Positions 9,892-62,866 of a stretch of 64,000 nt of DNA are shown here, one piece after another. The stretch is from Leifsonia sp. SCN 70-46 (GTDB taxonomy: Bacteria; Actinomycetota; Actinomycetes; Actinomycetales; Microbacteriaceae), in contig MEFY01000002.1 of the NCBI GenBank assembly GCA_001725325.1, forward strand, positions 1,243,559-1,307,558. The letters run 5' to 3'. The notes below the pieces were generated by a model, which was not told where the DNA came from, did no database searches, and was given only the letters and a program-made list of their open reading frames with translations. The first letter of the stretch is position 1. Each line of letters starts with the position of its first letter. Made by a program: the position numbers and the translations under genes.

Positions 9892-9901
9892 CCCCCGTCG
9901 C

Positions 9902-9965
9902 GAGCGGCGGGTTCTCCGCGGCCCGGGCCATGACGGCCCCCACGGCCGCGGGGAACCCGCCGCTC
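9902..9965 (+). terminator. Terminator of the subtilase gene
   Basis: Twenty-two-base arms (9902-9923 and 9944-9965), beginning GAGCGGCGGG and ending CCCGCCGCTC, pair with one mismatch or wobble around a 20-nt loop. It starts 10 bp after the protease stop codon. Confidence 0.7.
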
Positions 9966-10013
9966 CTCCCTATGTAACGGCCATGTAAACGTGCGAGAAA
10001 CTCCTTGCCAAGA

Positions 10014-10040
10014 GTTTGTTCGTAAGGTTTACTAACAAAC
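10014..10040 (+). promoter_or_regulatory. 27-bp operator overlapping the start of the ROK regulator gene
   Basis: An inverted repeat with arms GTTTGTTCGTAAG and, read from the other side, GTTTGTTAGTAAA (11 of 13 matching). It ends one base before the ATG at 10041. Its position would block transcription or ribosome access, and no Shine-Dalgarno sequence is evident. It is well placed for autoregulation by the ROK protein, whose relatives bind AT-rich palindromes of similar form. Confidence 0.65.
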
Positions 10041-11174: not shown

Positions 11175-11224
11175 CCCCACGGCACCACCCTTGCACCATC
11201 CCCCATCCATAGAAGGAAGACACA

Positions 11225-50898: not shown

Positions 50899-50939
50899 GT
50901 GGGCCCGGTGGGGCTCGAACCCACGACCCGCGGATTAAA
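50899..50939. repeat. attL: 41-bp duplicate of the tRNA-Lys 3' half
   Basis: The 41 bases are identical to 62793-62833, which lie within the intact tRNA-Lys gene. They comprise the acceptor 3' strand, the T arm and the variable region up to the anticodon-loop side (beginning GTGGGCCCGGTGGGGCTCGA and ending GCGGATTAAA). This is the hallmark of site-specific integration into a tRNA gene. Confidence 0.92.
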
Positions 50940-51038
50940 TGATCGATAGGTGGGGTCTCACTAGTACCTGTATGGTCTCAAAAACCCCGGAAAATCAACG
51001 ATCTCGACGGTTTCGATCAACACGTTGCAACACGGTTC

Positions 51039-51069
51039 TGTGGGCAAATGTGGGCAAAATGTGGGCACG
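51039..51069. repeat. Left-end integrase arm-site candidates (three TGTGGGCAAA-type direct repeats)
   Basis: Three consecutive copies of TGTGGGCA separated by 2-3 A residues. The last 21 bases (51049-51069) are identical to 62704-62724 at the other island end. Direct repeats near both att sites are typical arm-type binding sites for tyrosine integrases. Confidence 0.65.
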
Positions 51070-51078
51070 CGGGACTGG

Positions 51079-52227
51079 CTAGTGAAGGCGTAGGGTGAGC
51101 CGCGCAACCATCTCTGTGGCCAGTTCCTCAGCGCCTTCCATGATCGCGGCCGCGTGCACGCTGTCCTCAATGGGGGTGTCGATCTCCGAAGGTCCGAACG
51201 CGCGCATCGATGCGCTCGTGCGCTGACCAACAATCGCGGCGTCACCCACTGTGAGCATGGAAAGCGGTCCTATCGAGACTGTCGGTACATACCTCTCAGC
51301 GTCTGGCAGATCCAATCGCATGAGAATGCGAACCAGAGCGGCAATCCGCTCCGTCGCGTCGGACACGTCGAACACGCTTCCGAGGCCGTCACGTGGCAGG
51401 GACAACCATCCGCTTCTCTGGCCTGATCGTGTAACGAGCAGCCCAGTGTCGTTGTCACGTCGTTCGGTGAGCCTCGTGGCGACCATGTTTGGACCATTCT
51501 GAACGTCGAGCGCGGCCGTTGCTGGGAAGAGGCCGCCGTCGCGGCCCACCTTCGCGAGGCTGCGCTCGAGCCCAGACAAAACGCTTGCCTGCACTAGAGC
51601 AGAAACTGTCGGTATCAGGTGCAGCTCGACGAGCGTATGGAAGCTCCGGAGCACACCACTATCAATGTCGCGAAGGCGAAGCGGCTCCTCTGAAACTTCC
51701 GCTCGGCGCCAGTCAAGGTTCCGCGGTTGCGTCGTTGTGGCCGGCAAAGGGGCCGTCCGGGCTCCGGGGAAATCGGGAGCGGAAGTCGGCTTGCTGCGCC
51801 CTGGTTGGACACCGGCCAACAACGCTCGCGCGGCGGCGTCACCTTCTTTGCCGACTAGGTCGATGTACACGACTGCGCCCAGCAGCCCCGCAGCATCAAA
51901 GTTGTCAACGCGGACGGGAACAAGGCGACGCTCGGTGCCGGTCGGATCAAGGGCGAAGGCGGCCGCCCACTCGGATCGTACGAAATCGCTTGCGACCGCG
52001 GATCTGGACATTACGAGAAGAATTCTACCTGCGGAGGCTGCTGCTCTATCCATCTCGACTACGAAGTTGCTACCTGGCCGGAAGTCCCAGGCCTGTATCA
52101 CCACCTTGTACCCGGCTTGCTCGAGTTGCCACGCAATCCACTCGGCCCATGCGACGTCAGCGCCTGTGTAACTGATGAAGAAGTCCGCTGGGTCGCTCAT
52201 CTCAGCTTGCGGACTCACAGTAGGCAC
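51079..52227 (-). CDS. TIR-domain protein
   Basis: 382 aa. The N-terminal TIR domain (about residues 15-140) starts FFISYTGADVAWAEWIAW, continues GYKVVIQAWDFRPGSNFVVEMD, and has the conserved Glu in ASDFVRSEWAAAFA (Glu86), the position of the NADase Glu in catalytic TIRs. The remaining ~230 residues are an unrecognised domain, possibly a sensor. TIR proteins in bacterial islands commonly deplete NAD+ or make cyclic ADP-ribose signals during phage defence. GTG start at 52227; ATG at 52200 is an alternative. The start overlaps the upstream partner gene. Confidence 0.85.
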   Translation of the reverse strand: MPTVSPQAEMSDPADFFISYTGADVAWAEWIAWQLEQAGYKVVIQAWDFRPGSNFVVEMDRAAASAGRILLVMSRSAVASDFVRSEWAAAFALDPTGTERRLVPVRVDNFDAAGLLGAVVYIDLVGKEGDAAARALLAGVQPGRSKPTSAPDFPGARTAPLPATTTQPRNLDWRRAEVSEEPLRLRDIDSGVLRSFHTLVELHLIPTVSALVQASVLSGLERSLAKVGRDGGLFPATAALDVQNGPNMVATRLTERRDNDTGLLVTRSGQRSGWLSLPRDGLGSVFDVSDATERIAALVRILMRLDLPDAERYVPTVSIGPLSMLTVGDAAIVGQRTSASMRAFGPSEIDTPIEDSVHAAAIMEGAEELATEMVARLTLRLH

Positions 52228-52718
52228 GGAAGGTAGCGGGCCGTCGCTTCATCGCCGAGCGTCCCCTGTTTCCTGAGGGGCAGAATCAGGGCATCGCCCT
52301 CCTCGTCGATGGTCAATGAGACCCGTGCTTTGCTAGGCCAGTTTTCTGCCTTCCCGGTAGGGAGGTGCCCTGCACTCAGAACTTCCACAGATCTGATAGA
52401 CGTACGCAAGATGACCCAAACCCTGGCGTCCAACGTGAGTTGACCACGTTCGGACGGTGCGGAGAAGGTTGCTCGAATCAGTCGCCTCTCGGTGAAGAGT
52501 ACAACCGACCCTTCCACGATGGGATCGTCGTCCACCCAACCGGAAACGTACTGAATCGTCTCCTCATCTCTCATAACAGCGACGATTCGCGCCAGCAGTT
52601 CGCTCGCCCAGCCGTGGAGCGCCGCTGGGTCGATGTGCTCCCAAGCCGAACCGCCTCCCAAAATTCTCAAGCCGTTCGTGATCTCGCTCGACAAATCGCG
52701 AGCTCGCGTGGGGTCCAT
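52215..52718 (-). CDS. Hypothetical protein partnered with the TIR protein
   Basis: 167 aa. Helical N-terminal half (LSSEITNGLRILGGGSAWEH) and a beta-rich second half: IVEGSVVLFTERRLIRATFSA, LTLDARVWVILRTSIRSVEVL and KARVSLTIDEEGDALILPL. The second half has the look of a bacterial PH-like domain. It overlaps the TIR gene by 13 bp and has its own promoter region with an inverted repeat. It may be the sensor or inhibitor of the TIR protein; this is an inference from position only. Confidence 0.6.
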   Translation of the reverse strand: MDPTRARDLSSEITNGLRILGGGSAWEHIDPAALHGWASELLARIVAVMRDEETIQYVSGWVDDDPIVEGSVVLFTERRLIRATFSAPSERGQLTLDARVWVILRTSIRSVEVLSAGHLPTGKAENWPSKARVSLTIDEEGDALILPLRKQGTLGDEATARYLPCLL

Positions 52719-52730
52719 GGGTTGACCCTA

Positions 52731-52748
52731 TTTGTCCGGCATGACAAA
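52731..52748. promoter_or_regulatory. Inverted repeat at the promoter of the TIR operon
   Basis: TTTGTC and GACAAA (perfect 6-bp arms) around CGGCAT, 13 bp upstream of the ATG at 52718. TAGGGT lies 6 bp before that ATG on the minus strand, so the transcript may be leaderless and the repeat would lie over the promoter. From here to 52899 no gene is seen. Confidence 0.45.
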
Positions 52749-52899
52749 CGGAACTTGTTCTGGGTTCAGCGATCGTGGACCTCGCGTCATGTGTGGATTG
52801 GCGGGGATTCCGCGCCCTGTAGTCGTGGGCATGAGAGCCCGGGAAGTGTTTCGACCCGCCGTGACGATCGCGGCGAAATCTCCGGTGGTCTGAGGCGGT

Positions 52900-53499
52900 C
52901 TACTCGAGCGTCGGAATGGGCTCGAAGCCATTGAGAAACTCATCGACAGACATGACGCGCACATTCTGAAATAGCTCGGGCAGCTTCCCCACGGTAGCGA
53001 GGGATGCCAAGTACTCGCGATTTCGTCTTGCTCTCTCCAGCATGCTCGGATGGCAGACTACGAGTCCATATCTTCCGAGCACGCTCGCGTTGAGTATGTC
53101 GCCCAGTACGTGCTTTGCAGATCCGCTAAAGATGACCTCAACCGCAACAAGGCATCGCGGATTTGGATTCGGAATCAGTCCCTCGAACCAACCTCGCAAT
53201 TCGGGCGACATCTGATCATCGGAGAAATCGCCGTGTCCGGGGCTCGTGTTGAAAGGCCCCAACGCGATGTCCACGCGGGGCGCATATCTCAGGGCGTTCC
53301 GACTTAGCCCATCTGACCCTGCGGACGACACCCACTCCAGACGAACGTCTGGATGTCCAGCGTTCAGGAGCAGCCTCGCGCGAGCCTGGAATTGCGCAGC
53401 TGATACTTCCGGGTCGCTGTGCCACGTCACATTCACATCCTGCCTGACACGCGTGCAGAGAGCGTGTCGGACGCCCGGCGTATCGTCGGTGTCAGCCAT
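52900..53499 (-). CDS. Hypothetical protein with PD-(D/E)XK nuclease-like core
   Basis: 199 aa. APRVDIALGPFN (Asp77), then RCLVAVEVIFSGSAKHVLGD (Glu121, Lys129) and LNASVLGRYGLVVCHP follow the D...E-x-V...K spacing and strand-helix order of restriction-endonuclease-fold proteins. No DNA-binding domain or methyltransferase partner is seen. It lies between the TIR operon and a tiny Ser/Lys-rich gene divergent from it. It could be a stand-alone nuclease effector or a helper of unknown function. Confidence 0.6.
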   Translation of the reverse strand: MADTDDTPGVRHALCTRVRQDVNVTWHSDPEVSAAQFQARARLLLNAGHPDVRLEWVSSAGSDGLSRNALRYAPRVDIALGPFNTSPGHGDFSDDQMSPELRGWFEGLIPNPNPRCLVAVEVIFSGSAKHVLGDILNASVLGRYGLVVCHPSMLERARRNREYLASLATVGKLPELFQNVRVMSVDEFLNGFEPIPTLE

Positions 53500-53532
53500 T
53501 CAGGTGGCCGATCAGGAAAGGAGGGGATGCCC

Positions 53533-53643
53533 ATGGCTAAGCCGTCGAAGTCCGCTCTATCCAAGGCTGGAAGCACTCTCGCATCATCGAGTTCTTCCAA
53601 GTCGTCCAAGTCCCAGGCCGCGTCAACACTCGGTAAGGGCTGA
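53533..53643 (+). CDS. Tiny Ser/Lys-rich protein (36 aa)
   Basis: AAAGGAGGGG immediately upstream is one of the strongest Shine-Dalgarno sequences in the window. The product is MAKPSKSALSKAGSTLASSS followed by SSKSSKSQAASTLGKG. Two similar blocks (KAGSTLAS and QAASTLGK) are separated by Ser/Lys repeats. I recall very short proteins of this composition in many bacterial islands, function unknown; a profile search should confirm this. An ATG at 53527 is an alternative start, but too close to the ribosome-binding site. Confidence 0.65.
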   Translation: MAKPSKSALSKAGSTLASSSSSKSSKSQAASTLGKG

Positions 53644-53707
53644 TCGATTGGGTGCGCGTCGCTGATGCGGCGGCGCGCACCACCGGAGATCCCGTGACTG
53701 CTCAGAG

Positions 53708-54370
53708 TCAGGCAGAAGCTTCCTTAGAACGGAGGTCTCGCGGTCGCGGCGCGGGCAAATCCCAACCGCCTGAGGTCAGGTAGGCGTGAAGCCGCGATCG
53801 CTCGGCCTCGATGGCGGCGATCCGTTGCTGATACGACTCGACAACGTCGAGTATCCCGACCAAGTGGCTGGCTTCATGGTGGACTTGGATCATGGCAGCG
53901 AGCCGGTCCAACTCGGCGTCGAGCGCGTTCAGATTGCCCAGGGCTTCAAGTTCGAGGCGTGCGTAGCGTTCGTTAACGGTGGTGGGCAGGTACGTGACCC
54001 CGGTGTCAGCGGACAGCCAGGCATCAAACTGGAGGGCTGTCATGCCGCGGAATGCGTCGCTGAGGCCTGTCAGGTCGATCTCCGAATCGGGAGAGGCCAT
54101 CGGAGCCAGCAAGTAGCTTGGGGGCACCTCTAGAGCCATCGCTATGTTGAGCAGCTGGGCGACATCGAGATTGACCTTCCTGCCAGATTCGATGTTCTCG
54201 ATGATCGATTCCGTCACCGATGCGCCTTTGATCAATTCCGCAAGGTCGCGGGTCGTGCGGATGCCGCGTTCCTTCCGTCGGGGTCGACCATCCGGGAGCC
54301 GATTCCGTTCCCAAGCCGGATGGCCCAGGTGGACGGATGGTGACCCCGCAGGAGGTCGCCTGCCGACCAC
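53708..54370 (-). CDS. XRE-family helix-turn-helix protein with C-terminal helical domain
   Basis: 220 aa. The HTH lies about residues 38-90: RTTRDLAELIKGASVTESIIENIESGRKVNLDVAQLLNIAMALEVPPSYLL. A ~120-residue C-terminal region is predicted to be largely helical (VNERYARLELEALGNLNALDAELDRLAAMIQVHHEASHL; VVESYQQRIAAIEAERSRLHAYL), suggesting oligomerisation. The first ~30 residues from the ATG at 54370 are poorly conserved-looking, so the true start may be internal. It is divergent from the replication-relaxation gene and may control it. Confidence 0.7.
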   Translation of the reverse strand: MVGRRPPAGSPSVHLGHPAWERNRLPDGRPRRKERGIRTTRDLAELIKGASVTESIIENIESGRKVNLDVAQLLNIAMALEVPPSYLLAPMASPDSEIDLTGLSDAFRGMTALQFDAWLSADTGVTYLPTTVNERYARLELEALGNLNALDAELDRLAAMIQVHHEASHLVGILDVVESYQQRIAAIEAERSRLHAYLTSGGWDLPAPRPRDLRSKEASA

Positions 54371-54626
54371 CTCAGGGGGCCATTCCGTTGCCTTTCAAGG
54401 GGTCGCGGGCTCGCCCCTTTAACAGGAGAGAACAGGAATGAACAGAACAGAAGCAGTACGCGCGGGGCGCGAGGAGGCAGAGGCTCGGAGTTCGAGAGTG
54501 TCGGGTATCCGGAGTCGCGAACTGACGGACTTCGGAAGTTCCGCAATCACAGAGATCCGGCCGGTCGACGGGATGCTCGGCCTCACGATTATGAGTCGTG
54601 CGCTCCTCGCGGGGGCTCACTCGGGG
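54371..54626. other. Purine-rich non-coding region between the XRE gene and the structured hairpins
   Basis: Contains a small hairpin (AAGGGG/CCCCTT, 54397-54419) and several GAACAG direct repeats around 54430-54460. A rightward frame from 54438 exists, but its composition and its path through the hairpins below make it unlikely to be coding. No other gene was found. Confidence 0.4.
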
Positions 54627-54667
54627 CATCCCGCAGTACGTCCCGCATCGGGATGTAGTGCGGGATG
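54627..54667. repeat. Near-perfect 19-bp hairpin
   Basis: CATCCCGCA-G-TACG-TCCCG pairs with its complement across the loop CAT, with a single G/G mismatch and one wobble. It is the first of two strong structures in the region upstream of the replication-relaxation gene. Confidence 0.75.
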
Positions 54668-54676
54668 GGCAATGCC

Positions 54677-54797
54677 CTGTTCTTCCCTGTCCCACCGCCA
54701 GTCCCCGGCGGGGCCGGCTTCCCAACCTCCCGCACTCCGCAAGCTACTTCCGGGAGGTTGGGAAGTGAAGGACTGGAGGTGGAACAGGGAAGAACAG
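54677..54797. other. Very long branched hairpin (structured RNA or replication/transfer origin candidate)
   Basis: Three nested paired blocks: 54677-54696 with 54778-54797 (20 bp, one mismatch), 54698-54704 with 54770-54776 (7 bp), and 54718-54732 with 54751-54765 (15 bp). A side hairpin CCGGC-GGG-GCCGG lies at 54705-54717. The total is about 42 paired bases per side. It ends 41 bp before the replication-relaxation ATG. Possible roles are a cruciform origin, an oriT or single-strand origin, or a stable leader/ncRNA. Confidence 0.7.
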
Positions 54798-54838
54798 AAA
54801 AGAGAAGAACAAGAGATCAAGAGCGAAAGAGGCGACGG

Positions 54839-55495
54839 ATGCTGCAACTGACGAGTCGGGATGAAGCGATGCTCGACTGGATGAACGTGGTCAGACTGGC
54901 CGACGTCGACGCGATCCGGTGGGCGCTCTCCGCCTACCAGGAAGACCACGACGGCCCGGTGAGCGTGCGCCGCGCGAACCACTGGATCGCGCGGATGGCG
55001 GAGCTTGGGTACCTCGGGCGAGTGCGACCGGTGTATCGCGATCGGCAGATCGTTTGGCCAACGCACCAGTCATCGGGTCGATCACGGCCGCGCCTCTTTC
55101 GGCAGACGATGCGCCACGAGCTGGCAGTGGCATCTATTTCCGCCCGCTACTTGGCCGCTGGATACGCCTGGGCGCGCGACAGCCGTCCCGGAGCTATTTC
55201 ATCTCATCAGGCAGACGGCGTCGCCTTACTGCCTAACGGTCATGAACTTGTCGAGGTCGAACTCACTTCAAAGACTGCCGTTAGGTACTCGGGCATAATG
55301 CGAGATCATGCCGGACGACTTGGTCGGGGGGATGTGTTAAAGGTCTGTTATTTCACAACAGAGGAGGTAGGTCGAACTGTCAAACGCGAGGCTGATCAGT
55401 TTCTGTTCCGAGACGTAAGACCGCTACTTGTCGTTCGCCCAGTACTAGATCTTTACGGCCCGCCAGCAATCGGCGCCTTCGATCTGCAATCCTGA
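54839..55495 (+). CDS. Replication-relaxation family protein
   Basis: 218 aa. An N-terminal winged-helix region (LTSRDEAMLDWMNVVRLADVDAIRWAL) and VRRANHWIARMAELGYLGRVR precede a nuclease-like core. The core reads HQADGVALLPNG, then HELVEVELTSKTAVRYSGIM, giving D126...E139/E141...K145. This is the pattern of actinobacterial replication-relaxation proteins found on plasmids and integrative elements. GAGG lies 6 bp before the ATG. The adjacent long hairpins would be a natural DNA target. The exact biochemical role of the family is not established. Confidence 0.78.
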   Translation: MLQLTSRDEAMLDWMNVVRLADVDAIRWALSAYQEDHDGPVSVRRANHWIARMAELGYLGRVRPVYRDRQIVWPTHQSSGRSRPRLFRQTMRHELAVASISARYLAAGYAWARDSRPGAISSHQADGVALLPNGHELVEVELTSKTAVRYSGIMRDHAGRLGRGDVLKVCYFTTEEVGRTVKREADQFLFRDVRPLLVVRPVLDLYGPPAIGAFDLQS

Positions 55496-55554
55496 ACACT
55501 CCTACGTCGGTGCCTGCGGTCTCGAACGATCCTCAAACACTAGGATCGTGACTC

Positions 55555-56322
55555 ATGGCGCGAAGATGGCTGACGGGGTGGCGGATCATCCTGGCCGTCG
55601 TAGCCCTCGTCGTCGGCACAGGGAAAGCTCTTGTGGACATAGGAGTACTTAACTCCAAGCCCGGATACGGCAGTTTGGTGATTATTGGCGGCGGAATCGT
55701 CGTCTTTGTAGATGCCATTGGTCGAATCATCATCGCGAACCATCAACATAAGTCATCGACCATGCAGGCCGACCTTGACAAGGCGGTACAGTCCACACTT
55801 AAGACGGTCTCCGAAGCAACGGGGCTTGACGTGTGGTCCCTCGGTGGCAGCGTGTTCGTACCAAGGAAAGCAGGCCTTGCGCGGCGGACGTTGATCCTTG
55901 ACCGAGTAGCGCGTGTGAGACTTTCAGACTCGCCGCAGGCTACCGCTGTGAAATGGACGCCCGGTAAGGGCGTGGTTGGGCAAGTGTGGGAGGAGCGTCG
56001 AGCAAAGTATCAGAGTTGGCGGAAGATCGCGGAGCGCTATACGGCCGACCAGCTAACGCCGGAGTCGTTTGACAGGATCCGAGAGGAAACACGTTCTGGA
56101 TTCACGTTTGCGGAGTTCCGCGGAATTGTCGAAAAGTACGCAGAGATCAGGGCGGTCCCTATCTGGGACACGGCCCAAAAGACGGTTATAGGCGTTTTTT
56201 CGATAGACGTTTCAATGACGGACAAGCATCCGAGTCTAGGAAATTGCCTCGCGAGTCAACAAGCCAAGGAAACCGCTGAAAGAGGAGCGGCAGTGCTATC
56301 CAATGTCCTTCGCAAGCGTTAA
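55555..56322 (+). CDS. Membrane protein with GAF-like sensor domain
   Basis: 255 aa. Two N-terminal transmembrane segments (WRIILAVVALVVGTGKALVDIG and GYGSLVIIGGGIVVFVDAIGRIII) precede a cytosolic domain. It starts LDKAVQSTLKTVSEATGLDVW and contains VKWTPGKGVVGQVWEERR and AVPIWDTAQKTVIGVFSIDVS. The G-K-G-V-V-G-x-V-W and V-I-G-V-x-S-I-D elements are typical of GAF domains that bind small ligands. It has no output domain. TAGGAT 9 bp before the ATG suggests a leaderless promoter. It is followed 27 bp on by a 57-aa gene. Confidence 0.7.
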   Translation: MARRWLTGWRIILAVVALVVGTGKALVDIGVLNSKPGYGSLVIIGGGIVVFVDAIGRIIIANHQHKSSTMQADLDKAVQSTLKTVSEATGLDVWSLGGSVFVPRKAGLARRTLILDRVARVRLSDSPQATAVKWTPGKGVVGQVWEERRAKYQSWRKIAERYTADQLTPESFDRIREETRSGFTFAEFRGIVEKYAEIRAVPIWDTAQKTVIGVFSIDVSMTDKHPSLGNCLASQQAKETAERGAAVLSNVLRKR

Positions 56323-56349
56323 TCTCTCAGTATTGGAAAAGGAGGAGAA

Positions 56350-56523
56350 ATGAGCTCAGCATCGTCTGCACCGCGCCTCTCCCAGGCCCAGCTACGGGAC
56401 CTCTTCTACTCAAATATGAGAGCAATGAATCCAAGTCAGGATCTCGCTCGAGCTATCGATCGAGCCGAGGCGCGGGAAGCGCCTTCGGAATCTCCAAACG
56501 TTCAGGCCGAGTCCTCTAAGTAG
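56350..56523 (+). CDS. Small hypothetical protein (57 aa)
   Basis: GGAGGAG sits 2-3 bp before the ATG, 27 bp after the GAF-like gene, so it is probably cotranscribed. The product (LSQAQLRDLFYSNMRAMNPS, then DLARAIDRAEAREAPSE) is charged, probably helical and without signal or membrane segment. No family was recognised. It ends 7 bp from the end of the convergent protease gene. Confidence 0.55.
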   Translation: MSSASSAPRLSQAQLRDLFYSNMRAMNPSQDLARAIDRAEAREAPSESPNVQAESSK

Positions 56524-56530
56524 CTAAGTC

Positions 56531-56935
56531 TCAGGTGCCTTCGGGTCTGCGTCTCAATGGAGTCAGCGTCGTTAAATCCGCACGAGCATCAAATCTGACG
56601 ACAAACTGATCGAAGAACCCTCGCAGTCCAAGGACCGCGTGGTGATCCCAATCCTCCGTGAACCCGACATCACATGTCCAAGTGTATTTCTCGACTCGGA
56701 GCTCGACAGGCATCACATGACTGAAGTACTGGTTTCCTGCGATCTTGAAAATCTGAGGCTTCGCTTGAGTCAAGTCGAGCCCAAGTAGGTCGGCCCAGTC
56801 TTTCGACACGCGCGTCTTGCCAGCACCGCTGTCCGCGAGGCCCCAAAACTTTCGGGTGGGTAGGTCTGCGAAGGCAACGTGAACGAACGGCCTCCGCGTC
56901 ATTTGGGGAGGGATCACTTGGAAGTCGTACTTCAA
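56531..56935 (-). CDS. Retropepsin-like aspartic protease
   Basis: 134 aa. FWGLADSGAGKTRVSKDW has the D-S-G-A active-site motif (Asp35), and DHHAVLGLRGFFDQFVVRFD is the second hallmark (I/V-L-G-x-x-F), giving a single-lobe retroviral-type protease that would dimerise. I chose the TTG at 56935 because it overlaps the previous stop (TTGA) with GGAGGA about 10 bp upstream. A TTG at 56974 is an alternative. It is the last gene of the eight-gene operon; its substrate is probably another product of the operon. Confidence 0.72.
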   Translation of the reverse strand: MKYDFQVIPPQMTRRPFVHVAFADLPTRKFWGLADSGAGKTRVSKDWADLLGLDLTQAKPQIFKIAGNQYFSHVMPVELRVEKYTWTCDVGFTEDWDHHAVLGLRGFFDQFVVRFDARADLTTLTPLRRRPEGT

Positions 56936-57441
56936 TCGCCGACATCCTCCGACGGTCGCTCGGTCGGTATCCAAAAGACTGTTGCGTCGCTCTCCCCGAG
57001 GAGCTCATGGAGTTTGAACAGACTGGTGGCTGTCCGGAGAAGATGGCCGTCGGCCACGGCGGCCCATTCGCCCTTGTGGCGCTGGAGTTCAGTCGAGGCC
57101 TTTGCCGTCAATGACAGCCCATCCGTTCCTTCAGCTAGACCGGGTAGGTCGCGAACCCGCTCAGGCACGATCAGCTCGGATGGCGAGATCTTGTCGTCCC
57201 CCCAGACCAAAGTAAATTTCAGGCGAAGAAGGGCGTCTTGAACACTCGCTAGTCCGATTTCGTCCGACCTAAGGCCGGTCGCTCTCGCGACCAAGGATGC
57301 GGCCTCGACCCGTCGGTCCTGAACGACGACCTCGAGACGGCTGGCATCACCCTCCGGCATTGCAGCCGCTGCTTCCTCCAAAGACTCAGTGCTCAGAGGG
57401 ATCTCGTTGCCATTCCTCAGCTTCATTTGCGCGACGGTCAT
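56932..57441 (-). CDS. Hypothetical protein (169 aa) of the QueC-like operon
   Basis: The ATG overlaps the previous stop as ATGA and GGGAGGA lies upstream. The N-terminal ~50 residues (KLRNGNEIPLSTESLEEAAAAMPEG, LEVVVQDRRVEAASLVARATG) look like a small alpha/beta unit. The remainder carries LRLKFTLVWGDDKISPSELIVPERVRDLPGL and DATVFWIPTERPSED. No family was recognised. It sits between the SagB-like and protease genes and could be the protease substrate. Confidence 0.6.
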   Translation of the reverse strand: MTVAQMKLRNGNEIPLSTESLEEAAAAMPEGDASRLEVVVQDRRVEAASLVARATGLRSDEIGLASVQDALLRLKFTLVWGDDKISPSELIVPERVRDLPGLAEGTDGLSLTAKASTELQRHKGEWAAVADGHLLRTATSLFKLHELLGESDATVFWIPTERPSEDVGD

Positions 57442-58175
57442 GCCGGTATCCTCCCACCCAGCGCGAGGGCACCGAGTATGGCGGACGGCCACGATTCGGA
57501 GGGTTCCTGCGTTATAGAGACGCTCCCCAAGATCGTGGAACTGTGGCCCAAAGCAGTTGCAAGGAGATGTGCGAGCCCGAGAAACACGCCAGCGTCGCGC
57601 CAAAGAAGACTTTCGCCGCCCGGGTAGCGATCACTCGTTAGACGGGGTTCGCTTGCCGCAAAAAGGACCGCCGCCGGCTGCCAGCCATTGCCCAGCGCGT
57701 CCAAGGCGTCGGACATAAAACGAGTGCCGTCAGGCACCTGCACTTCGTCCACACCTCCCGTGCCTCGTCGGTACCAACCGGAATGCATGGCATCGCAGCT
57801 ATTCACGAAAATTAATGGCTCGATACTGTGCACCCCCCCGGCCGATGGAAAAAGCCTTGACCTCCACCAGCGTCCAGCTGCATCCTGCTGCTGCGATCGT
57901 GTTCGCGCGAGAAGGTCGAGCAAAGCCACCACCGAATCGCGATCGATCGGGCCCCCTTCAATGATTGAGTTTCTTTTCTCAAGGACGTCAGAGAGCTTGC
58001 CCAGCTCTGGCCGGGCTTCGTCTATCTGGACGACATCTCCAACCTTCTCCAGTCGATCGATCCAGTGTGAGCGACTGAATCCAAGCGGCTCAAAGGAATC
58101 TGCGTTGACGGGGCGCACCTGGGTCGCCGCAAGGAGCGAGTGGTTGAAAGGCGGATCTGAGGCTCGAGAGCTCAT
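57438..58175 (-). CDS. SagB/nitroreductase-like protein
   Basis: 245 aa. RSRLFPSAGGVHSIEPLIFV, SGWYRRGTGG and the late LLWRDAGVFLGLAHLLATALG match the SagB/ThcOx branch of the nitroreductase fold (P-S-A-G-x-x-H-x-x-E, G-x-Y, and E/D-A-G-x-x-x-x-x-L-x-x-x-A-L-G). Such enzymes use FMN to oxidise azolines or reduce small substrates. The usual glutamate of EAGH is an Asp here. ATGA overlaps on both sides bind it to the QueC-like gene and the 169-aa gene. Confidence 0.68.
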   Translation of the reverse strand: MSSRASDPPFNHSLLAATQVRPVNADSFEPLGFSRSHWIDRLEKVGDVVQIDEARPELGKLSDVLEKRNSIIEGGPIDRDSVVALLDLLARTRSQQQDAAGRWWRSRLFPSAGGVHSIEPLIFVNSCDAMHSGWYRRGTGGVDEVQVPDGTRFMSDALDALGNGWQPAAVLFAASEPRLTSDRYPGGESLLWRDAGVFLGLAHLLATALGHSSTILGSVSITQEPSESWPSAILGALALGGRIPA

Positions 58176-58807
58176 CTCAATCGACTCAACTCACTAAGTA
58201 CTTGATCGCGTTTGTAGCAGCCGGGGCACTCCCCACATGGAAGATTGCTGGTGTGGCAGGAATGTGTCCAGGCAAGGAGAGAGTCGGGAATTCCACTCCA
58301 CTTAACGAGATCGACAGTGCTCATGTTTATCGCCGGAGCGGCAACTGACAAGTTGCCCTCCTGCGCATGGAGAAGTATGTTCAATGCTTGGTAGAAGGGT
58401 GCGCCGCCATCTTTGTGGCGGTCGCCGTCTCCGAGCACCGAGCCGGTAAGAATGTCGACATTCGCGTCACGCGACTCGGAGTTCGCGTGCACAACCGCCC
58501 ACGCGGCAGCGGAGGTGACGAGCATTTGATTGCGAAATGGCCACCACTCGGGACTCGGCCAATGCTGAGGAATGTCTTGGCCCGATAGAAGGCCGCCAGC
58601 CGTGGCGGAGTGATCGATGCGAATCGCCGCGTGGTCGATTAGAAGGCCTCGAGCGACTGCTTGTGCGGCCCTTCCTTCGGCCTCTGCAGACCTCTGGCCG
58701 TAATCGATGAAAAGCGTATTCGTGGGGCGCAGCTTGAAAGCCAGCGCGGAACTGTCGACGCCGCCGGATAGGAGAAGGAGCGTCCTTCGAGTATCGCGGT
58801 CCGTCAA
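58172..58807 (-). CDS. QueC-like (7-cyano-7-deazaguanine synthase family) protein
   Basis: 211 aa from a TTG at 58807 that overlaps the previous stop (TTGA). Motifs in order: PP-loop LLLLSGGVDSSALAF (residues 10-24), FIDYGQRSAEAEG, WPFRNQMLVTSAAAWAV, ILTGSVLGDGD and TWxHSC-type WTHSCHTSNLPCGECPGCYKR, with four zinc ligands Cys184, 191, 194 and 197. All active-site landmarks of QueC are kept. No folE/queD/queE genes are nearby, so tRNA queuosine synthesis is unlikely to be its role. QueC homologues serve defence in Qat and type IV CBASS. A longer start at ATG 58849 is possible. Confidence 0.85.
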   Translation of the reverse strand: MTDRDTRRTLLLLSGGVDSSALAFKLRPTNTLFIDYGQRSAEAEGRAAQAVARGLLIDHAAIRIDHSATAGGLLSGQDIPQHWPSPEWWPFRNQMLVTSAAAWAVVHANSESRDANVDILTGSVLGDGDRHKDGGAPFYQALNILLHAQEGNLSVAAPAINMSTVDLVKWSGIPDSLLAWTHSCHTSNLPCGECPGCYKRDQVLSELSRLR

Positions 58808-60060
58808 GTGATCCAGCCCGGTACTGGTCGGAGGCCCATGCCCGCCCATACAGCCCGATAACAGGCGGTGGAGAGGTCGCGGTGGAGCTCGACTCGGGTG
58901 CCGGCCATCATCTTTATGCCGTCCGAATTCACCGACGTACCGAACCCGACCACCGGAATGCCGTGTCGCACTGCCCAACCGACTTCGAATACCGTGCCCG
59001 GATCGCCATGATCCAAAAGGGCGATAACGGCGTCACATTCAAGAAGACCATCAAGGTCCTTCTGAGCGACTTCGAGTCCGCCGTGACCGACTTTATGCAC
59101 TGGTGACCAGACGTCAGCGCCGAGGCTGTACAGCTCATCCCGGACGGATTCAACGAGCCATCTTTCGGAAACGCTGAAGAACGGAGCGGCTAGGTAGATG
59201 CGCGGGCTAGTGGGGTCCACGGGACGAGGGAGGGAGCCGTAGTGGCCGGATAAGACATCAATCGGGACGGCCGGGCTCTTTGTGGAACACCAATGGGCTG
59301 CCGCCGCAGACCCCGTTCGTGCCGCTTCGACCAGGTCAGCACCCTTATCAATCGCGTGCGCAAGACCCGCCGAGAAGGTGTCGCCGCTTCCGATGGGCCA
59401 GACTCGGGCCGTCGGATGCGCGCCGACGAAGTCGTGGCGAATCGCACCCTGCCCGTCCCTGCTACTCACAATGCATCCTGCGGCGCCACGTTTTGTGACT
59501 ACACCTGACACATTCGCATTCAGCTCGAGAACTCTTGACGACGCCTCAAGAACGTCACCCCGCTCGCCTATCTTCCGTATCTCGGTGCTATTGGCGACCA
59601 TAATCACGCGCGCATCCGCGAACGATTTGAGGTTAACGGGCTCAGCGTCTCGAGGACGTTGTGGATCGAAGATGACCGTCTCTGCGTCCACATGAACGCC
59701 AGACAGCGGAGCTTCTATTAGACCGAAGACTAAGGCGGTTCTATCCCCGGCGACTATCTCCTGGTCTTCTAGGAGCCGGGAATTGGGCCCATTCACCGCG
59801 GGGGTGCTTATAGGGGTGATGTAGCGAAACGCTACCGGTTCGGATCGGCGCGGGTTGTCCGCCGCTAGCTCGACCTTGAGGGACCAAGCTACAACCGCAG
59901 CTTCGTCCAACAGTTCTTCGTCTGTGTCAAGCACTGTATGCAGCACAGGGGGTTCGTCGCGGCCCGAGAGAGCCGCTGCCGCGCGCATGCCCGATCCGCG
60001 AAGCTCATGCGAGTCCGGCACCACGACGATCTCGCCGTACGTGCCGCCTACGACGATCAT
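58804..60060 (-). CDS. PfkB-type kinase fused to nucleoside 2-deoxyribosyltransferase
   Basis: 418 aa. Residues 1-285 resemble ribokinase/PfkB: MIVVGGTYGEIVVV, GSGMRAAAALSG, ANSTEIRKIGE, VVTKRGAAGCIVSS, and WPIGSGDTFSAGLAHAI with catalytic Asp227. Residues 287-418 are a nucleoside 2-deoxyribosyltransferase: RIYLAAPFFSVSERWL, then LLDHGDPGTVFEVGWAVRHG with the catalytic Glu. Together they could transfer a base to a deoxyribose and phosphorylate the nucleoside. ATGA and TTGA overlaps join it to both neighbours. The fusion is unusual. Confidence 0.8.
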   Translation of the reverse strand: MIVVGGTYGEIVVVPDSHELRGSGMRAAAALSGRDEPPVLHTVLDTDEELLDEAAVVAWSLKVELAADNPRRSEPVAFRYITPISTPAVNGPNSRLLEDQEIVAGDRTALVFGLIEAPLSGVHVDAETVIFDPQRPRDAEPVNLKSFADARVIMVANSTEIRKIGERGDVLEASSRVLELNANVSGVVTKRGAAGCIVSSRDGQGAIRHDFVGAHPTARVWPIGSGDTFSAGLAHAIDKGADLVEAARTGSAAAAHWCSTKSPAVPIDVLSGHYGSLPRPVDPTSPRIYLAAPFFSVSERWLVESVRDELYSLGADVWSPVHKVGHGGLEVAQKDLDGLLECDAVIALLDHGDPGTVFEVGWAVRHGIPVVGFGTSVNSDGIKMMAGTRVELHRDLSTACYRAVWAGMGLRPVPGWIT

Positions 60061-60392
60061 CTCTGGTGGACGTCGACAGTCACGGAACCGCCAGCGATGT
60101 CCACTACTACCGCTTCGTACTCAACGCCGTCCGCGAGACAACGTCGCAGTCGAGCGATGTCTCGCGTGATGGCGCCGACGGTCTCCCCGGACAGCAGCGT
60201 CGCGATGACCGCGCGAGGGGTGTCTATTGCGACCACATCGAGCAGCTCGCCAAGAGTGAGCTCCGCGACTATGTCGGGGGTGGGAGATCCAAGAACCGTC
60301 TGGAACTGTTGAGGACATGCGTCGTCCTCGCCGCCCCCCGCGCCGCCCAGTGAAGAGCTTGGGCGAGTAACGCTCGGATCGCTGCCGCTCAT
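60057..60392 (-). CDS. Hypothetical protein (111 aa) of the QueC-like operon
   Basis: GGAGGGTTGAAC precedes the ATG. A flexible Ser/Gly/Pro/Asp-rich N-terminus of about 35 residues (beginning MSGSDPSV) is followed by VAELTLGELLDVVAIDTPRAV, ITRDIARLRRCLADGVEYEAVVV and a final VTVDVHQR strand. No family was recognised. A flexible tail with Gly at position 3 makes it one candidate acceptor for a QueC-like modifying enzyme; this is conjecture. Its stop overlaps the kinase-transferase start as ATGA. Confidence 0.6.
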   Translation of the reverse strand: MSGSDPSVTRPSSSLGGAGGGEDDACPQQFQTVLGSPTPDIVAELTLGELLDVVAIDTPRAVIATLLSGETVGAITRDIARLRRCLADGVEYEAVVVDIAGGSVTVDVHQR

Positions 60393-60424
60393 GTTCAACC
60401 CTCCTTCGAGATCCTGATGCGAGG

Positions 60425-61276
60425 TTATACCGATATCGAGAGTTTGGAGGGCTCCGTCTGGGTATCTCTCACGTCCCACACCGGTAAGAGTGTCTCGGAG
60501 TAATTTCGCACGCCAAGGATGTCATGCGCGTCGCGTTCCGATCGTGCCATTCGACTCCAAATGCACGCGTCGAGCATGGCGGCCCTGAGTCCGGCGTGTG
60601 CAGCCCACTGCAGAAAGGCGTTCTCGAATTCGAGGTAGTCTCGCGGGAGAACCCAGTCAGGATCGAATACCCCAGCGACCGTGCCAGCACGAGCTATGTG
60701 AATGTCGATGATCGCGACTTGATCACTTGATCGATTGTTGCGTACCACCCAGCTCGCGGTCTTCGGCCCGACTCCGACGATTCTCGTTAGCCAATCGCGG
60801 AGTTCAACGTCGTCGGCCGGAGCCTCGTTGTCCCGTAGATGGTCGATGCCTGCAACGATCCGAGCCGCACGCTGACGTGGAAAGCGGTACCGACGCTGGC
60901 GCCCACGCACGGATAGCGGCACGAGAAGCAGCTCCTCAACCTGTTCTGGAGTCCAACGGCCACTGTCAGCGAAGACTCCTTCGGCTCGCAGCTGTTCGAA
61001 CGCAGCATTGCCAAGTTCAAAAGGCACACCGAACCCGCCCAGGAGACAAACACCCAACTCCTCGAGCAGGGAGCCTCCCAACTTGAAGCTGGCGGGAGCT
61101 TCAACTGCAGATGCAGCCGACTCCCAAAAAGCAGCCGAGCCCAGTTGCCAGGCCAGGCCCGCCCAGTATTGACGTGGCGTGTTCGATCGGGTGCTCGGGG
61201 CAATCGACCGCAACTCGCCCCGGAGTGAGTTATGAGCCGGGGTCTGCATTGTCAGGCGGGGTGCTGTGATCGTCAT
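60425..61276 (-). CDS. 8-oxoguanine DNA glycosylase (OGG)-fold protein
   Basis: 283 aa. The helix-hairpin-helix ELRDWLTRIVGVGPKTASWV carries the lysine of OGG-type bifunctional glycosylases (Lys172), followed by the catalytic Asp191 in AIIDIHIARAG. The N-terminal ~110 residues lack an obvious OGG N-domain, and the C-terminal end (HAGLRAAMLDACIWSRM) differs from housekeeping enzymes. OGG-fold proteins are known ancillary members of type IV CBASS. Its ATG overlaps the XRE regulator stop (ATGA); a 32-bp gap follows it. Confidence 0.8.
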   Translation of the reverse strand: MTITAPRLTMQTPAHNSLRGELRSIAPSTRSNTPRQYWAGLAWQLGSAAFWESAASAVEAPASFKLGGSLLEELGVCLLGGFGVPFELGNAAFEQLRAEGVFADSGRWTPEQVEELLLVPLSVRGRQRRYRFPRQRAARIVAGIDHLRDNEAPADDVELRDWLTRIVGVGPKTASWVVRNNRSSDQVAIIDIHIARAGTVAGVFDPDWVLPRDYLEFENAFLQWAAHAGLRAAMLDACIWSRMARSERDAHDILGVRNYSETLLPVWDVRDTQTEPSKLSISV

Positions 61277-61539
61277 TCGAGTGTGTCCGCTCTCTTGTCG
61301 ACGGGGGTGACTAGTTGGTCGAGCGTGATGCCCACCGCGTGCGCGATCAGGGCGACGGTGTACAAGCCCGGGTTCGAGACCCGCCCCGTTTCGATGCTGC
61401 GAATGGAGTCGAGGCTCACCCCGCTTTGACGGGCTAGATCAGCGCCGCTCATCCCGAGCGAAGTACGTCGCTCCGCGAGTGACGCACCCACGGCCTTGCC
61501 AAATGCGAGCTCCGCTACCGTAGCGGGCTTGCGACTCAT
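61273..61539 (-). CDS. XRE-family regulator heading the QueC-like operon
   Basis: 88 aa. The HTH reads GASLAERRTSLGMSGADLARQSGVSLDSIRSIETGRVSNPGLYTVALIAHAVGITLDQLV, the standard phage-repressor-like five helices. The ATG at 61539 has no ribosome-binding site but lies 6 bp after a consensus TATAAT, so a leaderless mRNA is likely. A 14-bp palindrome covers the -10 box, suggesting autorepression of the whole operon. Confidence 0.82.
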   Translation of the reverse strand: MSRKPATVAELAFGKAVGASLAERRTSLGMSGADLARQSGVSLDSIRSIETGRVSNPGLYTVALIAHAVGITLDQLVTPVDKRADTLE

Positions 61540-61545
61540 GCGTTT

Positions 61546-61560
61546 ATTATACATGTATAA
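61546..61560 (-). promoter_or_regulatory. Leaderless promoter and palindromic operator of the eight-gene operon
   Basis: TATAAT (minus strand, 61551-61546) is separated by 6 bases from the ATG at 61539. The perfect palindrome TTATACATGTATAA (61547-61560) overlaps it. It is AT-rich, in sharp contrast to its surroundings. The repressor is probably the XRE protein encoded immediately downstream. Confidence 0.7.
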
Positions 61561-61597
61561 AAATAGAAGTTGATTCTCGGGTTCTCGGTGAACTTGA

Positions 61598-62785
61598 ATG
61601 GATGGGAGGGGGTGCATCATCGGCAGCGTCACCCCCTACGACACATTGACCGGTCGGCGGTACCGGGTCCGTTACCGCCTGCCTGACAACTCCCAGACCG
61701 ACAAGCGCGGTTTCAAGACGAAGCGTGAGGCCGAGCTCTTCCTCGCCAATATCGACGTCGCGAAATCGCGCGGCGAGTTTGTCTCCGCTAGCCAGTCACG
61801 CATCACCGTAGGGGAGTGGGCGGAGCAATGGCTCGCCACCCAGGTGCAGCTGAAGCCGTCGACGCGCAACGGCTATGAGTCGATCGTGCGGTCGGCGATC
61901 ATTCCTAAGTGGGGCACCACCCCACTCGCTGGCCTAAGCCACGCAGGTATCCAGAAGTGGCTTGCCGAGGTCTCGACGCGGGCTGCGCCGTCGACCACGC
62001 GCAGCTACCATCGCGTGCTCAGCATCATGCTCAAGTACGCGGTGCGCGACGGCCGCATGATCCGCAACCCGGCCGACGGCGTGAAGCTGCCTCGAGTCGT
62101 GCAGCGCAAGCACGGCTACCTGACGCATCCGCAGGTGCACCAGTTTGCCGAGCTCTGCGGCCCCGACGGCGACGTCATCATGTTCCTCGCGTACACGGGT
62201 CTCCGGTGGGGCGAGATGGCAGCGCTCCGCGTGATGGATCTCGACATGCTCCGGCGCCGCGTCAACGTCGACCAGGCGGTCACCGAAGTGGGCAGCGAGC
62301 TCGTCTACGGAACACCGAAGAATCACAGCCGCAGGAGCGTCCCGTTCCCGAGCTTCCTGAGCGAGCTCCTCGCTGCTCGATGCGAGGGGAAGGCGAAGAG
62401 TGATTTCGTCTTCACCGCGCCCGAGGGTGGCCCCATTAGGAACAAGAACTTCCGTGCTCGCCGCTTCGAGCCGGCCATGGCGAAGATGCTCGAACTGCAC
62501 CCCGACCTCGTGCGGCTCGTCCCGCACGACCTTCGTCACACCGCGGCCAGCCTCGCGATCTCGGCGGGCGCCAACGTGAAGGCGGTCCAGAAGATGCTCG
62601 GCCACGCGTCGGCCGCGATGACGCTCGACGTCTACGCCGACCTCTTCGACGATGACCTGGATGCCGTTGGAGAGGCCCTCAGTGCCGTCGGCGCTCCAGA
62701 AGTTGTGGGCAAAATGTGGGCACGGAGCGATATTGAGTCGAAAACGGTGATCCCGATGAAGAAAAAAGCTGACCTGACCAGCTAA
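61598..62785 (+). CDS. int: Tyrosine-type site-specific integrase
   Basis: 395 aa. An AP2-like arm-binding N-terminus (GRRYRVRYRLPDNSQTDKRGF, KREAELFLANID), a SAM-like core-binding domain (RITVGEWAEQWLATQVQLKP) and the catalytic domain. The last has Arg in YTGLRWGEMAALR, Lys in YGTPKNHSRRSVP, His-x-x-Arg in VPHDLRHTAASLAI, His in KMLGHASAAMTL and Tyr in DVYADLF. It catalyses insertion and excision at tRNA-Lys. The ATG at 61598 has no good ribosome-binding site; initiation slightly downstream near IIGSVTPY is possible. The stop lies 8 bp from the tRNA attachment core. Confidence 0.94.
   Translation: MDGRGCIIGSVTPYDTLTGRRYRVRYRLPDNSQTDKRGFKTKREAELFLANIDVAKSRGEFVSASQSRITVGEWAEQWLATQVQLKPSTRNGYESIVRSAIIPKWGTTPLAGLSHAGIQKWLAEVSTRAAPSTTRSYHRVLSIMLKYAVRDGRMIRNPADGVKLPRVVQRKHGYLTHPQVHQFAELCGPDGDVIMFLAYTGLRWGEMAALRVMDLDMLRRRVNVDQAVTEVGSELVYGTPKNHSRRSVPFPSFLSELLAARCEGKAKSDFVFTAPEGGPIRNKNFRARRFEPAMAKMLELHPDLVRLVPHDLRHTAASLAISAGANVKAVQKMLGHASAAMTLDVYADLFDDDLDAVGEALSAVGAPEVVGKMWARSDIESKTVIPMKKKADLTS
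62704..62724. repeat. Right-end copy of the 21-bp arm-site repeat
   Basis: Identical over 21 bases (TGTGGGCAAAATGTGGGCAC plus G) to 51049-51069 at the left end. It lies within the last codons of the integrase gene, 69 bp from the att core. Confidence 0.65.
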
Positions 62786-62790
62786 AAAGA

Positions 62791-62866
62791 TGGTGGGCCC
62801 GGTGGGGCTCGAACCCACGACCCGCGGATTAAAAGTCCGATGCTCTGCCAACTGAGCTACAGGCCC
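62791..62866 (-). tRNA. tRNA-Lys (anticodon UUU)
   Basis: Read on the minus strand: acceptor GGGCCTG pairs with CGGGCCC (one G-U), D arm GCTC-AGTTGGCA-GAGC, anticodon loop CTTTTAA with UUU, T arm GTGGG-TTCGAGC-CCCAC, discriminator A and encoded CCA. It is 76 nt including CCA. Its 3' half is the integration site of the island; the right-hand copy is the intact, functional gene. Confidence 0.96.
62793..62833. repeat. attR: 41-bp core within tRNA-Lys
   Basis: Identical to 50899-50939. The integrase reads towards it from 8 bp away. Because the copy is inside the intact tRNA, integration regenerated a working gene. Confidence 0.92.

Follow-up and report, generated by a model that had tools for sequence, protein, structure and literature searches.

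The window analysed here is a stretch of 64,000 nucleotides from Leifsonia sp. SCN 70-46 (contig MEFY01000002.1, positions 1,243,559 to 1,307,558 of the forward strand), which contains an operon of eight minus-strand genes at window positions 56531-61539. These genes encode an XRE-family regulator, an OGG-like DNA glycosylase, a 111-amino-acid (aa) protein designated Sub, a fusion of a PfkB kinase with a nucleoside deoxyribosyltransferase (NDT), a QueC-like ligase, a SagB/nitroreductase-like protein, a 169-aa protein and a retropepsin-like protein (Table 1). The overlapping arrangement had been described in an earlier note made from the sequence alone, and it was borne out: all eight open reading frames (ORFs) are open and neighbouring genes overlap by 4 bases, except for one 32-bp gap, which lies 5' of the Sub gene; this gene has a strong ribosome-binding site, AAGGAGG. 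Five of the eight genes belong to a conserved core that is likely to constitute a third, distinct QueC-type system of N-terminal base-protein conjugation, probably with an anti-phage function.

Searches of the window proteins against Pfam, PADLOC and NCBIfam upheld the names given in the note to the XRE regulator, the OGG-like glycosylase, the fusion and the QueC-like protein and left the SagB-like protein below cut-off and the retropepsin weakly matched; neither Sub nor the 169-aa protein had a significant match. Residues that the note had singled out, namely Lys172 and Asp191 of OGG, Asp227 of the kinase and the Ser/Asp of the PP-loop, are kept in the relatives. The operon is located inside an 11.9-kb integrative element (50899-62833), flanked by identical 41-bp repeats of the tRNA-Lys end, with a G+C content of 0.60 vs 0.71 in the part of the window to its left. 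The integrase ORF of the element clusters with similar ORFs from five other loci, in a clustering that left out loci L050 and L081.

Table 1. Operon genes and element boundaries, in window coordinates
Feature	Position	Strand	Match or remark
XRE-family regulator, HTH_3	61273..61539	-	Pfam HTH_3 1.1e-9; ATGA overlap with OGG start
OGG-like DNA glycosylase, catalytic Lys172 and Asp191	60425..61276	-	Ogg-HhH 1e-12
Sub, 111 aa, tail MSGSDPSV..., small domain with C26 and C85; proposed conjugation substrate	60057..60392	-	
Sub codons 1-4, MSGS; proposed acceptor N-terminus (Ser2 once Met is removed)	60381..60392	-	
PfkB kinase-NDT fusion	58804..60060	-	PfkB 3e-13, NDT 1e-14, single chain
QueC-like PP-loop/zinc ligase, PF06508 'cluster 4' type, TTG start	58172..58807	-	Pfam QueC 8e-21; PADLOC QueC 2.5e-19
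SagB/nitroreductase-like protein	57438..58175	-	SagB 1e-8, below NCBIfam cut-off
169-aa protein, accessory module	56932..57441	-	weak DUF5678 similarity, E 0.074
Retropepsin-like protein, DSG motif, TTG start, accessory module	56531..56935	-	Pfam 9e-4, below cut-off
Site-specific integrase of the element	61598..62785	+	named from sequence reading; ORF beside tRNA-Lys
tRNA-Lys, attachment site	62791..62866	-	
Left 41-bp attachment repeat	50899..50939		identical to right repeat
Right 41-bp attachment repeat	62793..62833		identical to left repeat

Recurrence, variants and spread of the core

Recurrence was assessed in 89 loci from bacteria and archaea, comprising the window, 8 plasmid loci and 80 GTDB loci, all of which hold the fusion by construction. 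The 80 GTDB loci are the best of at least 165 confirmed fusion relatives from a scan of GTDB species genomes; many come from Pseudomonas and are not independent, several contigs end inside the cassette, and genes were called by ORF length alone. Using profiles built and iterated on these same loci, Sub was found in 87, the QueC-like protein in 85, OGG in 74 and the SagB-like protein in 61 of the loci; the counts for the 169-aa protein and the retropepsin were 1 and 2. The conserved core is composed of the OGG-like glycosylase, Sub, the PfkB-NDT fusion, the QueC-like protein and the SagB-like enzyme, and it is close to certain that these five constitute a single functional unit. Loci with the full set are arranged Sub-fusion-QueC-SagB, and since this order recurs in loci of many phyla, the operon is more than a chance assembly. 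The note had anticipated that the QueC-like, fusion, SagB-like and protease genes co-occur in unrelated loci; this was observed for the first three, and for OGG as well, and failed for the protease.

The 169-aa/retropepsin pair is an added accessory module. Besides the window, the protease is present in L019 (29% identity), with a relative of the 169-aa protein next to it (E 3e-7). At E 1e-6, members of the retropepsin family were found in 19 of 396 genomes sampled from Actinomycetota, that of the window among them, vs 1 of 396 for the fusion at E 1e-40, in a scan scoring no more than a few candidates in each genome; the family is also present in genomes where the fusion was not found. Five short retropepsin loci contain no core genes in 1 to 1.5 kb on each side, two of them having a GKWVA-type ORF just upstream, and a plasmid search with the retropepsin gave no match. 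As the pair is separable, an eight-gene unit was rejected. Of the view put forward in the note, an unfamiliar conflict-type gene set whose QueC relative probably attaches a base to a protein gained support from the recurrence of the core, and the inclusion of the protease pair in it did not hold.

Several variations of the core were observed. OGG stands either first on the same strand or after the core on the opposite strand, and a Dam-type D12 methylase gene follows it in 30 loci (e.g. L014:11237-11989, minus strand); in all 30 cases OGG is opposite to the core, and the methylase is not found behind every opposite-strand OGG. Sub and the fusion each occur a second time, with an FRG-domain gene behind them, in L033, L045, L049, L050 and L067, two of which have identical cores, and the FRG-domain protein of L049 matches PADLOC PDC-S15; the viral contig L129 has a second Sub and fusion too. 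Sub is absent from two loci, L036 and L040, which are operons of the cyclic-oligonucleotide-based anti-phage signalling system (CBASS). QueC is absent from four: in two of these, L051 and L076, the locus stops at the fusion; the other two, L055 and L060, both from Bacteroidetes, carry in the QueC slot behind the fusion a PurA-like gene (PF00709; L055:8100-9371 and L060:8179-9357, both on the plus strand; 44% identity between the proteins). This unrelated purine-amine ligase may do the same job there as the QueC-like enzyme. Relatives of the PurA-like protein on an Agrobacterium plasmid (L215) and a Rhodococcus plasmid (L216, where a NUDIX hydrolase follows) stand behind two hypothetical genes in another operon, possibly a separate system; no fusion is annotated near them in the two annotated regions examined, a third region being without annotation, and a viral scan with the PurA-like protein gave nothing useful.

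Searching plasmids by tblastn with the fusion retrieved 38 records, and the 20 listed include Proteobacteria, a cyanobacterium and haloarchaea. In the genus of the window, 9 of 27 genomes match the fusion, full-length in its own genome only and as partial kinase-type matches in the rest. By blastn, 18 of 5426 E. coli genomes match the fusion (54% query coverage in the 10 listed), and two strains examined carry Sub-fusion-QueC-SagB-like, followed by reversed OGG-Dam and a gene annotated as an anti-phage dGTPase. In one E. coli isolate (L207) the core spans 7808-11421. Among 80 loci on viral contigs, 8 contain a full-length fusion, each with Sub and QueC. A scan of neighbours covered 296 of 300 flanking ORFs, with the window and nine near-repeat loci excluded; among the first 25 of many families are methylases, HD proteins of dGTPase-like type and PtuA-, AriA- and AbiLi-like proteins, a descriptive result without a background control. 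Judged by context only, i.e. islands, plasmids, viral contigs and defence-type neighbours, the core is likely to defend against phages.

Two further genes were noted on the element of the window. A TIR-domain protein is encoded at its far end (51079-52227, minus strand; TIR_2 1e-33, with weaker PADLOC matches of short-Argonaute type). Directly behind the operon, on the opposite strand, lies a gene for a 255-aa protein (55555-56322, plus strand) with membrane-like stretches by eye, without a match in Pfam or PADLOC and with an unconvincing similarity (E 0.004) to a neighbour of the core in L021.

Sub and the QueC-like enzyme

Sub is composed of a Gly/Ser-rich tail (about 28% G and 18% S) followed by a compact domain with two invariant cysteines, C26 and C85. 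The domain gave scattered weak Pfam matches (PUA, S1, OB and KOW types among others) and no solved relative by sequence; it may be HIRAN-like. In two haloarchaeal copies (L013:6916-8001 and L018:7369-8001) the C-terminal domain is apparently present more than once, and the tail is much longer in L013. The conserved part of the tail is its very beginning. Among copies with one possible start, 47 of 51 begin with M[SGAT]G, the window reading MSGS, and the four exceptions are L055, L060, L076 and L091 (MHMSGSG). When the 5'-most ATG is taken as the start, this motif is found in 61 of 90 Sub copies vs 16 of 890 other ORFs of at least 200 aa in the same loci, and in 6 of 314 ORFs of the four other core families; three further start rules gave 64, 72 and 81 of 92 Sub copies, the last rule being the least blind. 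Information content at positions 2-4 amounts to 2.6, 4.0 and 2.5 bits, vs about 1 bit from position 8 (50 distinct copies). An alignment of 60 copies, drawn from the 84 with an M[SGAT]G start, shows M1 and G3 invariant by choice, which is not so for C26, G73 and C85. Eleven further loci outside the profile (the 8 viral contigs, L107 and the two E. coli strains) all contain Sub with an M[SG]G start, some being near copies of earlier loci and the starts being motif-guided, as the first such motif of each ORF was reported; the RefSeq start of both E. coli proteins is MSGSGGGS.

This N-terminus is of the type seen in partners of other QueC-family enzymes. Parts of PMC13279940 give MGGS for the modified CD-NTase of type IV CBASS, with the modification at Gly2, and MGTS for QatB, whose disordered tail is needed for defence. 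The MGGS-type start is present in those same 47 of 51 single-start Sub copies. Since the Sub motif matches those of a proven (CD-NTase) and a proposed (QatB) substrate of the QueC family, the 111-aa protein, a role for which the earlier note had missed, is likely to be the conjugation substrate.

The QueC-like enzyme, of about 210 aa, retains the PP-loop, PxRN, the Asp of YPDC and four Cys in 82-85 of its 85 copies, with YGQ nearly invariant. The best solved matches of its profile are near equal, Cap9 (9nto, 2.9e-16) and QueC (2pg3, 4.4e-16), and a stretch typical of the QueC-like family, GSG-x-L-x-G, aligns with Cap9, the window having AGG instead. A tree built without L035 and without QatC, and subject to a long-branch warning, groups the QueC-like proteins in a single clade (100/100); the 16 canonical-type QueC sequences and the two CBASS-type QueC of L036 and L040 fall outside it. 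In Cap9, according to PMC13279940, base stacking is the role of the YPDC Tyr, and the Asp recognises the Watson-Crick edge of the base. The Asp is kept in 85 of 85 QueC-like copies, and the Tyr is replaced by His in 80 of 85, the window included. The QueC-like enzyme is likely to act on the N-terminus of Sub. A scan with the PADLOC QueC model at E 1e-35 over 369 genomes from the same class as G041 gave 0 matches, and as the controls were unmatched too, this result is uninformative.

The fusion was also found within QueC-type CBASS operons on two Thermoplasmata contigs (L036:1223-6249 and L040:2352-7707). In L036, the QueC (PADLOC 5e-61) is accompanied by a CD-NTase (PADLOC 3e-99) whose first start reads MSGGGGGSGG. 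The CD-NTase of L040 was recognised by Pfam SMODS (6e-7) and contains an internal MGGGTPIG, its start being unsure. Both operons also hold a Cap17-like effector and an exonuclease, and the OGG of L040 matches PADLOC at 1.4e-82; OGG and this PADLOC QueC model belong to type IV CBASS. The note had reported no CD-NTase, which is correct for the window and not absolute, since these two operons join the fusion to one. No TGT (tRNA-guanine transglycosylase) was found among the ORFs scanned in L036 and L040, both short contigs, and the L036 genome has a TGT elsewhere. As the fusion is part of CBASS operons without TGT among the scanned ORFs, it apparently can stand where Cap10 is expected.

The candidate base and the partner enzymes

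In the proposed scheme, 7-carboxy-7-deazaguanine (CDG) would be supplied by QueD/QueE of the host or the island, a step supported by gene linkage in three relatives. The QueC-like ligase would activate the CDG carboxylate with ATP and join it to the N-terminal amine of Sub (Ser2 or Gly2 after Met removal), as suggested by the Sub motif, the similarity to Cap9 and the conserved active site. The fusion would replace the TGT-family Cap10 of type IV CBASS and would read or further process the protein-bound base, as its presence in the two archaeal operons without a TGT gene seen suggests. Speculatively, OGG, joined by the Dam-type methylase in 30 loci, may connect the system with DNA, and the role of output part may be filled interchangeably by SagB-like, FRG or Mrr-like proteins.

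The supply of CDG can be followed in relatives of the operon. In L019 (Microbacterium) queD and queE are divergent from the core, in L021 (a Nocardioides metagenome-assembled genome, MAG) they lie beyond OGG, and in L107, of the same genus as L019, OGG-Sub-fusion-QueC-SagB-QueD-QueE stand in one row. TGT was undetected in all three genomes, and canonical QueC was not shown in those of L019 and L021, the two tested. A Vut_1 gene is located beside the core in L012 and L042, and the L012 record annotates it with queuosine salvage. The queD-queE genes beside the core of these three actinobacteria with no TGT detected, together with these Vut_1 neighbours, point to CDG as the base, an assignment somewhat less likely than the action on the Sub N-terminus. 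The statement in the note that no preQ0 pathway gene is visible is correct for the window, whose genome yielded none either, and relatives do carry queD/queE next to the core. In a survey of 28 of about 81 carrier genomes, where absence is weak evidence for the MAGs among them, QueD-type proteins were found in 24, QueE in 24 (one query), TGT in 24 and Vut_1 in 14, so most carriers could make CDG anyway. Bacteroidetes carriers have TGT, and their QueD/QueE were set aside as evidence; among them, Pedobacter L055 has a QueE-like protein and no full QueC.

Several observations weigh against this scheme. The SagB-like protein is missing from 28 of the 89 loci and OGG from 15, and L055 and L060 are complete loci without QueC, in which Sub begins with MKGK, or has no ATG, GTG or TTG before its Gly run except a TTA-led frame start. 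The exposed residue of Sub is mostly Ser, vs Gly in CBASS. QueD, QueE, TGT and Vut_1 were all undetected in the genome of the window, and the carriers L020, L042 and L045 lacked QueE by the first query, a profile giving weak radical-SAM matches only. A QueD-type protein without TGT may not be special by itself in the genus of L019: a PF01242 protein is present in 10 of 59 genomes there, and TGT was detected in 0 of the nine tested besides that of L019, one of the nine being the genome of L107 and the other eight further members of the genus. Finally, with His at the place of the base-stacking Tyr of Cap9, the base may differ. Instead of CDG, the enzyme might conjugate to Sub some other base, guanine for instance, or a nucleotide supplied by the fusion, without need of QueD/QueE. 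This we regard as rather improbable: consistent with it are the His substitution, the lack of detected CDG genes in the genome of the window and the PurA-like protein in the QueC slot of L055 and L060, PurA-type enzymes being known to join an amine to a purine nucleotide, and against it stand queD-queE beside the core in the three actinobacteria without detected TGT and the retention in every copy of the Asp by which Cap9 recognises the guanine edge.

The fusion keeps its catalytic residues in 89 of 89 loci (kinase Asp227, NDT Tyr289 and Glu359), and PF05014 and PfkB are families of nucleoside or sugar enzymes. Both facts would fit a salvage of purines or deazapurines, in which the two domains, NDT and kinase, would retrieve a base or nucleoside for amidation by the QueC-like enzyme, with no protein modified, a view close to the reading of PF06508 cluster 4 in sections of PMC13329287. 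Such salvage leaves unexplained Sub with its conserved N-terminus, OGG, the CBASS operons with the fusion and the patchy spread on mobile DNA, and is improbable. Likewise, the resemblance of the SagB-like protein to SagB (its profile matches CyaGox, 5lq4, at 3e-19) and the invariant C26 and C85 of Sub could suggest maturation as in ribosomally synthesised and post-translationally modified peptides (RiPPs), with the SagB-like enzyme acting as an oxidase on the two cysteines of Sub. This is very improbable: no YcaO-like protein was found by Pfam or NCBIfam among the eight operon proteins, to which the YcaO search was confined, the SagB-like gene is not general among the loci, and what is conserved is the N-terminus, within a variable tail.

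OGG retains its catalytic Lys and Asp in 74 of 74 relatives, and its best solved match is the 8-oxoguanine DNA glycosylase 9o00. In an elaboration of the conjugation scheme that is conceivable and on the whole doubtful, the core would build a protein-linked nucleotide: CDG on Sub would receive a (deoxy)ribose from NDT and a phosphate from the kinase, would be read by DNA or entered into it with the aid of OGG, and the PurA-like protein would do the first step with another purine in some Bacteroidetes. If so, base-protein conjugation would serve immunity in general, as a chemistry whose ligases, base-handling enzymes (TGT or NDT-kinase) and partner proteins can be exchanged. Conjugation of CDG to Sub, the preferred reading, would in turn suggest that bacteria without TGT can use 'queuosine' genes for other purposes, perhaps immunity. 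Because some E. coli isolates carry the gene set and CDG is made by E. coli K-12, the identity of the base and the role of the conjugate are directly testable.

Relation to known systems

Up to the present, a nucleobase joined to a protein end has been reported for type IV CBASS (2025; PMC11996544, in part), and base-protein joining has been proposed for Qat (2026; sections of PMC13279940). The portion of PMC13329287 on PF06508 cluster 4 mentions the fusion and HTH genes as neighbours and proposes a role in purine salvage; no mention of Sub, OGG, the SagB-like protein, QueD/E or CBASS links was found in that portion. FRG, Dam, OGG, QueC-type and PfkB genes are listed without comment for a Pseudomonas syringae insertion in a part of PMC12944308, and the text seen of PMC12421847 merely mentions Qat. 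No description of the gene set as a system was found in the literature searched, preprints and most subscription papers being outside that search. The gene set is widespread and hardly described, what is in print, so far as these partial texts go, being the QueC-fusion pair as purine salvage and one uncommented gene list.

The enzyme of the window agrees with cluster 4 as given in part of PMC13329287 in SGGxDS, YGQ..E, CHx5CxxCxGCxK and the PfkB-PF05014 neighbour, except that the invariant Glu follows after 5 residues here vs 6 as printed. With canonical queuosine/archaeosine QueC it shares the fold, PP-loop, zinc Cys, PxRN and the Asp of YPDC, and it differs in having HxDG in place of YPDC, in its clade separate from the 16 canonical-type sequences and in the absence of a tie to tRNA use, TGT being undetected in carriers G000, G027, G028, G029 and G076. 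Unlike RiPP systems with a SagB oxidase, the eight operon proteins include no YcaO cyclodehydratase. Membership of the window locus in CBASS or Qat was rejected; CD-NTase, QatA, QatB and QatD were not found among its eight genes, nor was TGT in the genome of the window.

The closest parallels are to these two systems. Qat likewise combines a QueC-family enzyme with a partner that has a disordered tail and a conserved N-terminus (QatB, MGTS), whereas the eight proteins gave no match to the QatA KAP NTPase, QatB or the QatD TatD nuclease, the extensions of QatC are absent here, and the Asp stays in the QueC-like enzyme, QatC having lost both base-reading residues (in the part of PMC13279940 concerned). 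Type IV CBASS has in common with the core a QueC-family ligase, Cap9, to which the QueC-like enzyme is related, a partner with a Gly/Ser N-terminus and an OGG partner, and two archaeal operons of the CBASS kind hold the PfkB-NDT fusion. It differs in that Sub takes the place of the CD-NTase, of which there is none among the eight window genes, and PfkB-NDT that of TGT/Cap10, with no TGT match in the genome of the window; the QueC-like clade is apart from the two CBASS-type QueC tested (100/100, with the long-branch warning), and the Tyr of YPDC is His. If the proposed reading is correct, the core would be a third, widely spread case of base-protein conjugation, in which both the partner protein and the base-handling enzyme are new; exchange of parts between the systems is suggested by the archaeal CBASS operons.

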